Made by a program: the position numbers and the translations under genes. From Gammaproteobacteria bacterium (GTDB lineage Bacteria; Pseudomonadota; Gammaproteobacteria; Ga0077554; Ga007554), in NCBI GenBank assembly GCA_020053945.1, contig JAGVME010000032.1, positions 1 through 46,404 on the forward strand: 46,404 bases of DNA, given 5' to 3'. Below the pieces are notes generated by a model. That model was not told where the DNA came from. It saw only the letters and a list, made by a program, of their open reading frames with translations, and did not search any database. Shown in pieces: positions 6,126 through 45,360 of the stretch (position 1 is the stretch's first letter; each line of letters opens with the position of its first letter).

Positions 6126-6190
6126 TGTCATCTCGACCGCAGGGAGAGACCTTAATAATCTTAAGATCTCTCCCTGCGGTCGAGATGACA
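6126..6190. repeat. Long palindromic (REP-like) element between mshC and mshD
   Basis: TGTCATCTCGACCGCAGGGAGAGA (6126-6149) and its exact reverse complement (6167-6190), 24/24 bp with a 17-nt loop. Confidence 0.85.
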
Positions 6191-19999: not shown

Positions 20000-20844
20000 G
20001 ATACAGCGCTGTCCCGCAATTTTGCCATGATATCTGAGGTTATCGGTCCATTCACCTGAAAACTGCACCCCGGAATACCCATGATTTCACGCACTGGCCA
20101 TATCCCAATCACGCTATTGCACAAAAATACCTCGTCAGCCGAAATGACCTCTTCTAACGCCAGGGCGGCAATGGCGCTCGGTATACCTGCCGTACGCGCA
20201 TAGGCCAAAATCCAGCTACGCATCACACCCGCCACGCCACACTGCGATACATCCGGTGTTAACAATTGCCCGTTGCGCACCACAAACAGGTTAGTCATCG
20301 TGCCTTCAATTACGTTACCCTGAATATCGAGCATCAAGCCTTCCGGCACATTCGCATCATCCCATTCACTGCGCGCCAGCACCTGTTCCAGGCGATTAAG
20401 ATGTTTGATGCCTGCTAGCGCTGGATTCCACCCCAAACGCGTGGCACACACACGCACTGCCACACCTTCACTCCAGAAAGCCATGGGGTAATCCGGCCAG
20501 GGGTAGAGCGCCAAGATGCGCGTAACCTGAGCGGATAAGGGCGGTGGCGCCCGGTAGCCGCGTCCGCCACTACCACGAGTGATGATGATTTTCAGCACGC
20601 CCTGCGTTTCACCACTACATAACGATAGCGCCTCGCTACGCAGCAGCGCCAGATCAGGCCCAAGGAAATTAGGAAAGTTCAAGCGTTGGCAACTCAACCG
20701 CAAACGCTGCATGTGCCTATCCCACAGCGCAGGCTCACCGTTGATCACCGCAAAAGTTTCAAACAGGCCATCGCCATAGTGCAGACCGCGATCATGCACA
20801 TCAATGCAATTAGCAGGAACGCCATTGACCAGGGTGGTCGTCAC
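19996..20844 (-). CDS. pabC: Aminodeoxychorismate lyase PabC
   Basis: DRGLHYGDGLFETFAV, KHLNRLEQVLAR, EGTMTNLFVV; overlaps mltG by ATGA. Confidence 0.92.
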   Translation of the reverse strand: MTTTLVNGVPANCIDVHDRGLHYGDGLFETFAVINGEPALWDRHMQRLRLSCQRLNFPNFLGPDLALLRSEALSLCSGETQGVLKIIITRGSGGRGYRAPPPLSAQVTRILALYPWPDYPMAFWSEGVAVRVCATRLGWNPALAGIKHLNRLEQVLARSEWDDANVPEGLMLDIQGNVIEGTMTNLFVVRNGQLLTPDVSQCGVAGVMRSWILAYARTAGIPSAIAALALEEVISADEVFLCNSVIGIWPVREIMGIPGCSFQVNGPITSDIMAKLRDSAVS

Positions 20845-22421
20845 CCACTCGCCCCCAGCGCCAACAACAACCCCCGCGCCTTGGCGCGTGTTTCCTGTAA
20901 CTCGGCGTCAGGAACGGAATCCGCCACAATCCCCGCGCCGACACGAAATTGCACATCACCATTTTCCACCAGCATGGTACGAATCAAAATATTCAGGTCC
21001 ATATTTCCATTATGATTCAGGTAACCCATTGCGCCAGTATATGGCCCACGTGGCGTCTGCTCCAGCTCGGCAATGATTTCCATGCAGCGCACTTTGGGGC
21101 AGCCCGTAATGGTGCCACCCGGAAACACCGCGCGTATCACTTGCCCCGGCGTCACCTCAGGGCGTTTAATGCCGCGCACATTGGAAACAATGTGATGCAC
21201 ATGGGCGTACGATTCCAGCACCATCAATTCATCCACCTGCACGCTACCGGGTACGCACACACGACCCAGATCATTACGTTCCAGGTCGATCAGCATCACA
21301 TGCTCGGCACGTTCTTTCGGATGCGCCAGCAACGCCTGTGACAACGCAACATCTTCATCACCCATCCCGCGCGGACGTGTACCGGCAATCGGCCGCACCT
21401 CAATGACATCACCCTGCACCCGCACCAGACGCTCGGGCGACGAACTCAAAATCGCGCTGGCCGCTCCCGGCGTCGTGCCTCCTGCGTCGTACATGGATGT
21501 ACAAGTGTCGCCAGAAGCAGGATACTGGAAGCGATCGGCACTAGCAGAACCCTTCGCTTCCGCTCTTCCCTGTGCGTCGCCCTTATAGAGCGCGACACCC
21601 GCAAACGGCGCGGGATTGTTTTTCCGCAAGCCCTGGTAAAGTTGCATATAACTTACATCAGGCGCCAACGTGGCGCGATATCCCCGCGACAAATTTACCT
21701 GAAACACATCGCCTGCCACGATATATTCCTTAATACGCCGCACACCGTCCAGAAAACGCGTGGGATCATCCTCCTGCAGTGCGCTTATCGGCGCGGCCAC
21801 TTCGGCGTGAGGTTCCACTGTTAAATGCTCAAGGTCATGCGCCATCCTATCGAGCAATACTGCATCTTCAGCCACAAGGAAGGTGCATTGGACATGATGA
21901 TCAACAATCACTGCCGCGGGAATACGTGTAGCAAACGCGATGGGCAGCCGTGATGTGCTGAGCGGCTCCTGCCCGCTTAGCTCCTCCCGCGCTTCCCCGT
22001 GCGTTTCGGCGCCGGCCAATGCCAAGCGCGGCTCAATTTGCGCTGCCAACCCATACCCCAGATAAATAAACCAGCCGCCGGAAAACGGCAACACAGGGTC
22101 CACCTCAGTAGATGACAGCGCCGCCTCATGCGCCCACGCATCGTCCAGTGCCTGCAAAAAATTCGCCGCACCGGGGACGAAGGGAGCTGCGAGCGCCAGA
22201 GAAGACGGGGACCCGGAAGTGGCAGAAACGTGGGACGTGGCATTACCCGCCAACACCAAGGTTTTGCCAGGAAAGGCGAACAGTATGTCATAACGCGCAG
22301 GCAGGATGCCGGGAGCGGCCGACGTACCATGCGCCACACTTTCGAGCAAAAAAGGGTAGCGTTCGGCATGGGCGCCATGCAAACGCAGAAGATCAGGATA
22401 GATAGGTAGTTGACGTATCAC
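20841..22421 (-). CDS. pabB: Aminodeoxychorismate synthase component I PabB, with inserted repeat-derived segments
   Basis: RRIKEYIVAGDVFQVNLSRGY, ILSSSPERLVRV, PIAGTRPRG, DLERNDLGRVC, PGGTITGCPKVRCMEII; 526 aa, with repeat-encoded SADRFQYPASGDTCTSMYDAGG. Confidence 0.92.
   Translation of the reverse strand: MIRQLPIYPDLLRLHGAHAERYPFLLESVAHGTSAAPGILPARYDILFAFPGKTLVLAGNATSHVSATSGSPSSLALAAPFVPGAANFLQALDDAWAHEAALSSTEVDPVLPFSGGWFIYLGYGLAAQIEPRLALAGAETHGEAREELSGQEPLSTSRLPIAFATRIPAAVIVDHHVQCTFLVAEDAVLLDRMAHDLEHLTVEPHAEVAAPISALQEDDPTRFLDGVRRIKEYIVAGDVFQVNLSRGYRATLAPDVSYMQLYQGLRKNNPAPFAGVALYKGDAQGRAEAKGSASADRFQYPASGDTCTSMYDAGGTTPGAASAILSSSPERLVRVQGDVIEVRPIAGTRPRGMGDEDVALSQALLAHPKERAEHVMLIDLERNDLGRVCVPGSVQVDELMVLESYAHVHHIVSNVRGIKRPEVTPGQVIRAVFPGGTITGCPKVRCMEIIAELEQTPRGPYTGAMGYLNHNGNMDLNILIRTMLVENGDVQFRVGAGIVADSVPDAELQETRAKARGLLLALGASG
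21459..21546. repeat. GC-rich repeat copy inside pabB
   Basis: AGTGTCGCCAGAAGCAGGATACTGGAAGCGATCGGCACTAGCA (21504-21546) matches the intergenic copy at 22507-22549 at 40/43; preceded by the GTACATGGATGTAC hairpin. Confidence 0.85.
22296..22330. repeat. Partial GC-rich repeat copy near the 5' end of pabB
   Basis: CGCAGGCAGGATGCCGGGAGCGGCCGACGTACCAT resembles GGCAGGATGCCGGTAGCGACCGCCGCACC in rfbD; encodes TSAAPGILPA. Confidence 0.55.
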
Positions 22422-22462
22422 TTTAAGGGCTTTTCTAACATAGGAAGCATGTTGTCATGTTG

Positions 22463-22549
22463 CTGGAGGCAGCCGCTCCGGCTGCTGCGCCGCCCATGGA
22501 TGGGCCAGTGTCGCCAGAAGCAGGATGCTGGAAGCGACTGGCACTAGCA
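22463..22549. repeat. Intergenic GC-rich repeat copy between leuS and pabB
   Basis: Contains GCAGCC/GGCTGC and GCCCATGGATGGGC hairpins plus the AGTGTCGCCAGAAGCAGGATGCTGGAAGCGACTGGCACTAGCA core. Confidence 0.85.
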
Positions 22550-22628
22550 CATCCGTGTACGTCGAGTGTCAAAATACTGAAGAATGGGGGTGATAACAAG
22601 TAATGACGCCTTCCATTGCACAAACAAG

Positions 22629-25172
<2,544 letters not shown>

Positions 25173-28023: not shown

Positions 28024-28973
28024 CAATTCTCCGCCAGCACCATTTCCAGTGCCGCCCTCCAATCGGGAAACGTGATGCCGAAGGTCTGCGCCAGTTGTTC
28101 GTTGCTCAACACTGAATAGGCAGGACGTGCGGCAGGTGTCGGGTAATCGTTGCTGGGAATAGGTTGTAATTGCGTGGTTGCACCCTCCAAAATGGCATTG
28201 GCAAAGCCGTGCCATGATGTTTGACCTGCGCAGCTCATGTGATACACGCCGCTGTGCTGCCGGATATAACCGGTCACACTCGCCGCACAGGGACGTGCAA
28301 GTGTCGCGGAAGGCAGGATGCCGGTAGCGACCGCCGCACCGGCATAATCGGTAGCGTTGTCCCGACCTCGATCCAACCCTTGCGCGACAATTTGCGCCGT
28401 CGCCTCGGCCAGCAGCCGACACCAAGTGGGCGCGCCGACCTGGTCATCAACCACTTTCAACAGTGGCCTTTCACTGGCTAGACGTTGCATGGTCAGCAAA
28501 AAGTTTTTGCCACGCCGTCCATACACCCAGGCGGTGCGCAGAATAAGGTGCGGCACATCCACGGCCTGAATGGCGCGTTCACCCGCCAGCTTGGAGCTGC
28601 CATAAATGTTTTGCGGATTCGGGATATCCTGTTCGGTATAGGGCGTATTTTTGCTGCCATCAAATACATAATCTGTGGAATAGTGTATTAATGCCGCGCC
28701 GAGGCGTTGTGCTTCTTGCGCCAGAATCCCCGGTGCGGTGCCGTTAATCGCCAGCGCCAGTGCCGGCTCGGTTTCAGCTTTATCCACCGCCGTATACGCC
28801 GCCGGGTTGACAATTAAATTCGGCTTTACCTCACCGCAGATTTTTCTTATCGCGTCAGGGTTGGCCAGATCCATGTCGGCCTGCCCCAGCGCGATGACCT
28901 CACCCAAGGTGGACAAGGTGCGTTGCAGTTCCCAGCCTACCTGACCGTTTTTCCCGGTGAGTAAAATTCTCAT
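28023..28973 (-). CDS. rfbD: dTDP-4-dehydrorhamnose reductase RfbD with inserted repeat-derived segment
   Basis: MRILLTGKNGQVGWEL, YSTDYVFDG, LRTAWVYG; insert GAAVATGILPSATLARPCAASV before GVYHMSCAGQTSWHGFA. Confidence 0.93.
   Translation of the reverse strand: MRILLTGKNGQVGWELQRTLSTLGEVIALGQADMDLANPDAIRKICGEVKPNLIVNPAAYTAVDKAETEPALALAINGTAPGILAQEAQRLGAALIHYSTDYVFDGSKNTPYTEQDIPNPQNIYGSSKLAGERAIQAVDVPHLILRTAWVYGRRGKNFLLTMQRLASERPLLKVVDDQVGAPTWCRLLAEATAQIVAQGLDRGRDNATDYAGAAVATGILPSATLARPCAASVTGYIRQHSGVYHMSCAGQTSWHGFANAILEGATTQLQPIPSNDYPTPAARPAYSVLSNEQLAQTFGITFPDWRAALEMVLAEN
28280..28342. repeat. GC-rich 51-bp repeat unit (plus the start of a second) inside rfbD
   Basis: TCGCCGCACAGGGACGTGCAAGTGTCGCGGAAGGCAGGATGCCGGTAGCGA followed by CCGCCGCACCGG. 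Confidence 0.85.
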
Positions 28974-30405: not shown

Positions 30406-31604
30406 GGAATGGCTCCTGGGTTGTGGGGGGTATTTGTGCCGGTTCGGTTGGCATAATTCTGCGCCACCCAGTGCTGGTAATTGCCGCTGGTGACATTCCC
30501 TACCCAAACTTTATTGTCCAGATACCAGCGCACGGTCTTGCGCAAGCCGGTTTCGAAGGTTTCCTGGGGCACCCAGCCCAGGTCGCGCGCGATTTTGCGG
30601 GCATCAATGGCATAACGGCGGTCGTGGCCGGGACGGTCTTTGACGTAGGTGATGAGTGATGCGTGGGGGACATGCGCCGCATCAGGGCTATATTCATCAA
30701 GAAGGGCGCACACGGTATGCACAACATCGAGGTTGGTTTTTTCATTCCAGCCACCAATGTTATAAACCTCGCCAATTTTGCCCTGGGCCAATACGGCACG
30801 GATCGCCGCGCAGTGATCCCCCACATACAACCAGTCGCGGACATTTTGGCCGTCGCCATACACCGGCAAAGGGCGGCCTTGGGTGGCGTTAAGGATCATC
30901 AGGGCAATGAGCTTTTCCGGAAATTGGTACGGGCCGTAGTTGTTGGAGCAGTTGGTGGTTAAGGTGGGCAGGCCGTAAGTGTGGTGATAGGCGCGCACCA
31001 GATGATCGGAAGCGGCCTTGGAAGCGGAGTATGGGCTGTTTGGGGCGTAGGGGGTGGTTTCGCTGAACGGCGGATCCTGCGCGCTTAGGGAGCCGTAAAC
31101 TTCGTCGGTGGACACATGCAGGAAACGGAACGCGGCTTTTTCATCGCCCGCTAAAGTGTTCCAGTAAGCGCGCGCCTCTTCGAGGAGATTAAAAGTGCCT
31201 ACAACATTCGTTTGGATAAAATCGCCGGGGGCGTGGATAGAACGGTCGACATGGCTTTCTGCGGCAAAATTCACTATCGCGCGGGGGCGGTGGGTAGCAA
31301 GTAACTGCCGCACCAACACCCGGTCGCCAATATCACCTTGCACAAAAATATGCCGGGAGTTACCCTGCAGGCTGGTCAGGTTATCCATATTCCCGGCATA
31401 GGTCAGCTTGTCCAGATTCACGACTGAATCCGCCGCACACGGAGGTGCCAGTGGCGTGGAAGGCAGGATGCCGTGAACGGCCGCCGCACACGGAGGTGGC
31501 AGTACTGCCCCAGGCCGGGTGCCGGAAGCGTCCGCCTCCTGGGCGATCCAGTCCAACACAAAATTCGACCCAATAAAGCCTGCACCACCTGTGACTAGAA
31601 TCAT
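30402..31604 (-). CDS. rfbB: dTDP-glucose 4,6-dehydratase RfbB with a repeat-derived insertion near the N-terminus
   Basis: [54 protein letters not shown]. Extra segment between IAQE and [13 protein letters not shown]. Confidence 0.95.
31430..31536. repeat. Tandem pair of the 51-bp GC-rich repeat inside rfbB
   Basis: Unit 1 31430-31480 and unit 2 31481-31531, both starting CCGCCGCACACGGAGGTG, followed by CCGCC. Confidence 0.88.
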
Positions 31605-45030: not shown

Positions 45031-45062
45031 ATTGGTATTGTCCTTAGGTTAAACCTGAAATA

Positions 45063-45230
45063 TAGGGCACTTCTAAAAATTCGATCAAGGCGCGAGGGCA
45101 AGGCGCCATGATATAGTAAGGGTGCGCGAAAAAGCGCAGTGTACACGTAGTACATGAGCATTTTGAGCGCCCCCTGTATAAAAGGGCAACGCCGCCATCG
45201 TGGCTTCAGCGAATTTCTAGAAGTGCCCTA
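45063..45230. mobile_element. MITE-like element with ~22-bp terminal inverted repeats upstream of recA
   Basis: ATAGGGCACTTCTAAAAATTCG at the left and CGAATTTCTAGAAGTGCCCTAT at the right (21/22 complementary); no substantial ORF; possible TA target duplication. Confidence 0.85.
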
Positions 45231-45360
45231 TGGCCAAAATGATAGCCTACACTGTTTTGGGGGCTAGGCCACCCCCCTGGTTTATGGAATAATGGTGAAC
45301 AGGATTTAAGTATTGTAGGGCAGTTGGCGATTCGGGTTAAATAAGGCACAACAGGTGAAC

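Follow-up and report, generated by a model that had tools for sequence, protein, structure and literature searches.

We consider it more likely than not, judging from sequence, that the 51-nt repeat described here is a non-autonomous mobile family whose RNA core carries two CsrA/RsmA-type hairpins, spaced such that a single CsrA dimer could bind both. The element is dispersed in high copy number, inserts precisely as 51 bp, duplicates its target hardly or not at all, and nests within copies of itself. Its fold is kept by compensatory change, its GGA loops are nearly invariant in the home family, its genic copies can reside in an open frame, and it is spread through the Gammaproteobacteria. The mobile, structured, and gene-tolerated nature of the element was established by the comparison of genomes rather than by watching its movement. 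The features in the window, that is, the whole stretch of 46,404 nucleotides analyzed, are as follows.

22489..22539, plus strand: 51-nt element, intergenic copy between leuS and pabB (covariance model match 22485–22544, columns 5–55).
22492..22505, plus strand: hairpin 1, GCCC-AUGGAU-GGGC, with the CsrA-type loop A-N-GGA-N (fold, covariation, loop conservation).
22510..22538, plus strand: hairpin 2, outer helix GUCGC/GCGAC around the inner AGC-AGGAU-GCU (fold, covariation).
22462..22563, minus strand: outer degenerate element hosting the nested plus-strand copy (parts 22540–22563 and about 22462–22488).
21460..21579, no strand assigned: 120-bp in-frame composite insertion in pabB (inner plus-strand element 21486–21536 within a 69-nt minus-strand variant).
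28282..28332, plus strand: copy lying antisense in the rfbD-like gene, whose frame stays open (covariance model match 28278–28337).
31432..31482, plus strand: first of two tandem elements in the rfbB-like gene (51-nt period).
31483..31533, plus strand: second tandem element in the rfbB-like gene, degenerate (repeat comparison).
20841..22421, minus strand: pabB-like gene, host of the composite insertion (PDB relatives are aminodeoxychorismate synthase).
22629..25085, minus strand: leuS, upstream neighbor of the intergenic copy (tblastn relatives are LeuS).

The leuS–pabB copy scores 76.7 bits with the covariance model; its GGA strand is the plus strand, antisense to both leuS and pabB, and its unit length of 51 nt was taken from empty sites at other loci. 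The first-pass annotation had pointed out the resemblance of this copy to the one inside pabB; the resemblance spans 22482–22554 of the leuS–pabB copy, with 84% identity over 73 nt. Within this match, the 51-nt unit is indeed shared, and the stretch beyond the unit (GGCACTAGCA...) turned out to be an arm of the outer inverted element. The annotation also described a leading hairpin whose stem differs between copies around a two-base gg loop. The stem variants are real: the leuS–pabB copy has GCCC-AUGGAU-GGGC and the pabB copy GUAC-AUGGAU-GUAC, and the copies in the rfbD-like and rfbB-like genes have GCAC-AGGGAC-GUGC and GCAC-ACGGAG-GUGC, respectively. Their loop is not gg but the hexaloop A-N-GGA-N. 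The second stem that it proposed, GTCGC...GCGAC, was recovered in the fold and encloses an inner hairpin. The ANGGAN loop signature, the exact 51-nt unit, and the nested composites at leuS–pabB and in pabB go beyond what was noticed at that stage.

Three further sites in the window were recorded. Near the pabB start, positions 22299–22317 partially match the second half of the element (GGCAGGATGCCGGGAGCGGCCGACG) without hairpin 1 and represent either a relic or chance. Two unrelated inverted repeats lie at 6126–6190 (two 30-nt arms, 97% complementary and 5 nt apart) and at 45062–45231 (two 38-nt arms, 94 nt apart).

In the genome from which the window comes (G000; 2.14 Mb, 155 contigs, about 86% complete), the core AGGCAGGATGCCGNNAGCG was found with up to 3 mismatches in 114 places, compared with 3 for the reversed pattern, so the repeat is not due to chance. 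A covariance model built on 43 copies gave 148 places in the 2.14-Mb genome at E < 1, and 96 places with stricter filters at E < 0.001. Subtypes whose parts differ in length still total 51 nt in the home family. In recurrent length variants (L057, L040, L029, and other loci), hairpin 1 is longer by about 18 nucleotides (GGAAGCGAAGGGTTCTGC) and hairpin 2 by about 15 (AGAGCGAAGCGAGGGG.TC), both near multiples of three.

Comparison with the relatives G001, G002, and G006 showed that sites without the element are exactly 51 bp shorter in nine cases, and that the empty sites of composite insertions differ by 102, 111, or 120 bp. G001 is presumed to be the groundwater MAG nzgw583, since both yield identical hits at identical coordinates. 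The target duplication is 0 to 2 nt. In 127 of 137 copies, a C precedes the element (position −1), and T is weakly preferred at −3; the units start with G[C/A]C and finish with C or CC. Tandem copies are spaced 51 nt apart. The element also inserts into itself: both the leuS–pabB and the pabB copies consist of a plus-strand unit inside a minus-strand unit, and the nesting point, CTAGTGCC^GC, is identical in the two. At leuS–pabB, the outer element and the nested copy together occupy 102 bp, the far end of the outer element being fixed by length, with no clear match there; when the inner unit is taken out, a hairpin GUACACGGAUGUGC, the linker UAGU, and a second GGA hairpin are left. The insertion in PabB is absent from the protein of all seven relatives and from the DNA of G001, G002, and G006, and it falls in a gap relative to the PDB homologues. 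The leuS–pabB junction, where an empty site of the intergenic copy would lie, was not found in the relatives compared. It should be noted that shared copies are conserved at 247 of 253 positions versus about 91% in their flanks (five copies, picked for a high score); gene conversion could equally yield this value, and we excluded it from the support.

The fold begins with helix 1, of 4 bp with a six-base loop, followed by the linker NAGT and a 5-bp helix GTCGC/GCGAC, which encloses a 3-bp hairpin with the loop AGGAU. In the 43-copy alignment, 95.5% of the cells are paired and 7 pairs vary on both sides with pairing kept; the number of compensatory cells is 55, compared with 17.8 in shuffles and no more than 5 in slid structures. 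RNAalifold, run unguided, recovered essentially the same fold. The alignment from other families had been fitted to the covariance model, so its 39 compensatory cells against 9.1 carry less weight than the slid controls, which collapse. Thus, the proposal that selection acts on nucleic-acid structure, made initially from a few hairpins in the window, is supported by covariation across the genomic copies. The single-sequence folding energies of the window copies on the GGA strand are unremarkable (z of about −0.6 to −1.4 versus shuffles), and the rfbB copy alone takes a different fold; the support for structure is covariation, not stability. At a site common to two species (L227 and L318), hairpin 1 differs by a compensatory change from T-A to C-G, which could reflect selection after insertion or gene conversion.

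On the GGA strand, G-U pairs outnumber A-C pairs by 41 to 12 when the pair 37–43 is left out and by 43 to 26 when it is included; this pair was excluded only after counting, as copies whose second hairpin differs in size look out of register there. The excess of G-U points to the GGA strand and would fit both RNA and single-stranded DNA, and a role of the hairpins at the DNA level would give identical covariation. The main rival to the CsrA reading is one in which the hairpins are the single-stranded DNA ends, hairpin 1 on the left and hairpin 2 on the right, of a minimal element that a Y1 (IS200/IS605-like) transposase mobilizes in trans; here the GGA loops would be a recognition feature of the enzyme and their likeness to CsrA sites a coincidence. 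We regard this rival as rather unlikely, although the small or missing target duplication and the preferred C before the insertion fit single-strand transposition, and all six element-bearing genomes that were tested carry Y1 transposase genes, with six in G000. The hairpins do not flank the Y1 loci consistently, either in G000 or at the loci examined in its relatives; of the six in G000, a single one (C43) has an element nearby, which is about the chance level. The REP/RAYT link suggested by the first-pass annotation was therefore not supported. The tetranucleotide GTAG was looked for at the hairpin foot in the element units and is absent. Elements derived from IS200/IS605 (PATEs) are marked by insertion 3' of a short fixed target and by the lack of target duplication; the corresponding observations here are the C at −1 and a duplication of 0 to 2 nt, and no autonomous relative was identified.

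The loops show what the transposase rival does not predict, namely six bases that, with their variable N positions, match the CsrA site in detail. A GGA in loop 1 had been a requirement for inclusion among the 43 copies, and loop conservation was therefore retested on a separate set of copies selected by the second half of the element only. Among 83 paired copies chosen in this way without regard to loop 1, 82 have A-N-GGA-N in hairpin 1, with all four bases occurring at each N. The pair flanking this loop is C-G, and the resulting site is CANGGANG; hairpin 2 displays CAGGATG (CAGGAUG in RNA). The stems have other sequences, with GGA kept, in distant families and also in two more subtypes of G000 (GGCCAGGGATGGCC, GCACAGGGATGTGC, GCGCAGGGATGCGC, GGGCAGGAAGCCC); where the stem of hairpin 2 is replaced, its GGA is usually retained. 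The exceptions come from a single family outside the class, in which ACGAC occupies loop 2 of three copies, one of which has no GGA in loop 1 either.

According to published data, the SELEX consensus of CsrA is RUACARGGAUGU, its sites mostly have six-base loops and stems of no more than 4 contiguous pairs, the loop recognized by RsmE is ANGGAN, and the optimal intersite distance is >18 nt (PMC7652899). By the criterion of sequence, the element agrees with the published CsrA/RsmA site in motif, loop size, stem length, and the spacing of 22 nt between its GGA motifs, and CsrA is thus the predicted ligand of its RNA. The genome encodes a canonical csrA in which L4 and R44, which we take to be the RNA-contacting residues, are kept. 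A hairpin-loop census over 400 kb of one relative gave little signal.

A further rival is an ordinary decaying REP- or RPE-like repeat, in which structure is kept only in master copies for an unspecified cause and the dispersed copies have no function. The placement of roughly half of the copies in genes, the nested and degenerate copies, and random orientation in the home family are consistent with it, but it leaves unexplained why nearly invariant GGA loops sit on replaced stems and why copies outside the home family are biased to the sense strand. As a general explanation we find it improbable; for individual copies it is partly compatible with the CsrA reading.

The copies inside genes were analyzed with a codon-usage gene caller trained on the window, which was right for 132 of 133 segments on its own training data. 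With this caller, 49 of 90 copies in G000 and 12 of 28 in G002 lie within genes and leave the frame open. With stricter criteria the frame is kept in 20 of 20 in-gene copies, as expected of survivors, since 51 is a multiple of three. These open-frame copies bear out the earlier idea of a dual nature, a structured unit that codes for a peptide when it lies in a gene. The inserts are unaligned with PDB proteins around residues 200–240 of the rfbD-like protein, and an unaligned insert lies around residues 31–69 of the rfbB-like protein.

Orientation differs between the home family and the others. In the home family, 33 copies are sense and 28 antisense to their genes (p = 0.61), several frames and both strands are used, and the sense copies are no better structured than the antisense ones. 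The lack of an orientation bias and of better structure in sense copies gave no sign of a cis-regulatory role per copy in the home family. The random orientation speaks against every copy acting in this way there, and either a function in trans (titration) or one in propagation is left. Outside the home family, 35 in-gene copies are sense and 6 antisense, and 30 of the 41 use one sense frame, which gives a G/A/S-rich peptide such as DVQGRTSVAGGRMPGAT. The significance of this bias (p = 5 × 10−6) is optimistic because the training sets of the caller were small, copies within a genome are not independent, and the first batch (16:2), which prompted the test, is counted in; the batch fetched afterwards goes in the same direction. 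The one-frame excess would favor retention of the element for its encoded peptide, a flexible linker put into proteins. We consider this very improbable, however, as many copies outside genes have the same fold and loops as genic ones, the home family uses several frames and both strands, and the compensatory stem changes alter the peptide.

Some sites appear to have received the element more than once. In a valyl-tRNA-synthetase-like protein (...WYLELSKPVL^), two unrelated genomes have the element at apparently the same site, one in the antisense and the other in the sense orientation; in a tRNA-guanine-transglycosylase-like protein (...SGGFQV.SL^), it occupies the same site in two families. 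The loci behind these cases are L231 (G000:C155) and L201 (Kmv18 MAG), and L399 (G157) and L448 (G377). They suggest independent insertion into the same tolerant loop.

Beyond this genome, the element is carried by 76 of 369 Gammaproteobacteria sampled across families, including Methylomonas fluvii, Methylobacter tundripaludum, and an uncultured Ectothiorhodospiraceae bacterium, and by one further family of the phylum outside the class. Plasmids, phages, and viral contigs (the latter scanned by exact pattern) gave no match to the element, so no carrier was seen. No Rfam family matched the element, and neither the window nor the element alone gave a hit to CsrB/CsrC, RsmX/Y/Z, or TwoAYGGAY up to E = 10. 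In the open-access literature searched, we found no earlier description of the element or of the pairing of a mobile repeat with CsrA sites.

In the CsrA reading, the RNA of the GGA strand would be transcribed and bound by CsrA, and the spacing would allow one dimer to hold both hairpins. Such binding may keep the loops fixed in that CsrA protects or helps the propagating RNA; alternatively, many transcribed copies may titrate CsrA as a dispersed sponge. Insertions into genes would survive wherever the protein tolerates the 17 added residues, and this would account for the predominance of a single sense frame outside the home family. Observations against this reading are the random orientation in the home family (33:28), where sense copies are no better structured, the frequent lack of GGA in loop 2 in the out-of-class family, and the unremarkable stability of the window copies against shuffles. 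The fuller proposal, a mobile CsrA-recognition RNA with two sites per copy that has spread through the Gammaproteobacteria, reaching roughly a hundred copies or more in some genomes, and that acts as a dispersed sponge or wires genes into the Csr regulon and serves as a tolerated 17-residue linker in genes, is put forward tentatively, as a possibility that we would not call probable. If CsrA binds, the element would be a mobile repeat built on the site that a global RNA-binding regulator recognizes; the rewiring or titration of a post-transcriptional network by transposition would become testable, as would the question of how one element meets the demands of an RNA fold and a coding frame together. 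In any case, a covariance model has been gained for a widespread repeat that is absent from Rfam and adds peptides to conserved enzymes.

Among known systems, Rickettsia palindromic elements (RPEs) are small repeats inserted many times, about half of them within genes, where they add an in-frame short peptide to conserved enzymes (PMC10969869, PMC2229807). The element likewise sits inside genes with the reading frame kept. RPEs, however, are about 105–150 bp long and form a single long stem-loop with terminal inverted repeats, whereas the element has 51 nt, two short hairpins with CsrA-type loops, and no terminal inverted repeat, and occurs in Gammaproteobacteria. The REP/REPIN repeats and their GTAG- and CGTC-tagged relatives are high-copy palindromes, some intragenic, with compensatory stem changes (PMC3733652), features that the element shares; it differs in lacking a GTAG tag and a linkage to RAYT, in having two fixed hairpins with ANGGAN loops in each unit, and in its stems of 4 bp compared with 8–9 bp in the CGTC families. 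The Coxiella repeats QMITE1 and QMITE2 are also small gammaproteobacterial mobile repeats overlapping genes, as well as sRNAs (PMC5896051), but they have 150–400 bp, terminal inverted and direct repeats, and a location mostly at gene ends, unlike the element. CsrB/CsrC, RsmX/Y/Z, and TwoAYGGAY share with the element the GGA-loop hairpins that fit the CsrA consensus (PMC7652899); they are single-locus RNAs with several sites, whereas the element is a dispersed 51-nt mobile unit. Taken together, although it lacks defining features of RPEs, of REP/RAYT systems, and of the Csr families in Rfam, the element behaves like an RPE in genes and resembles the Csr RNAs as an RNA.
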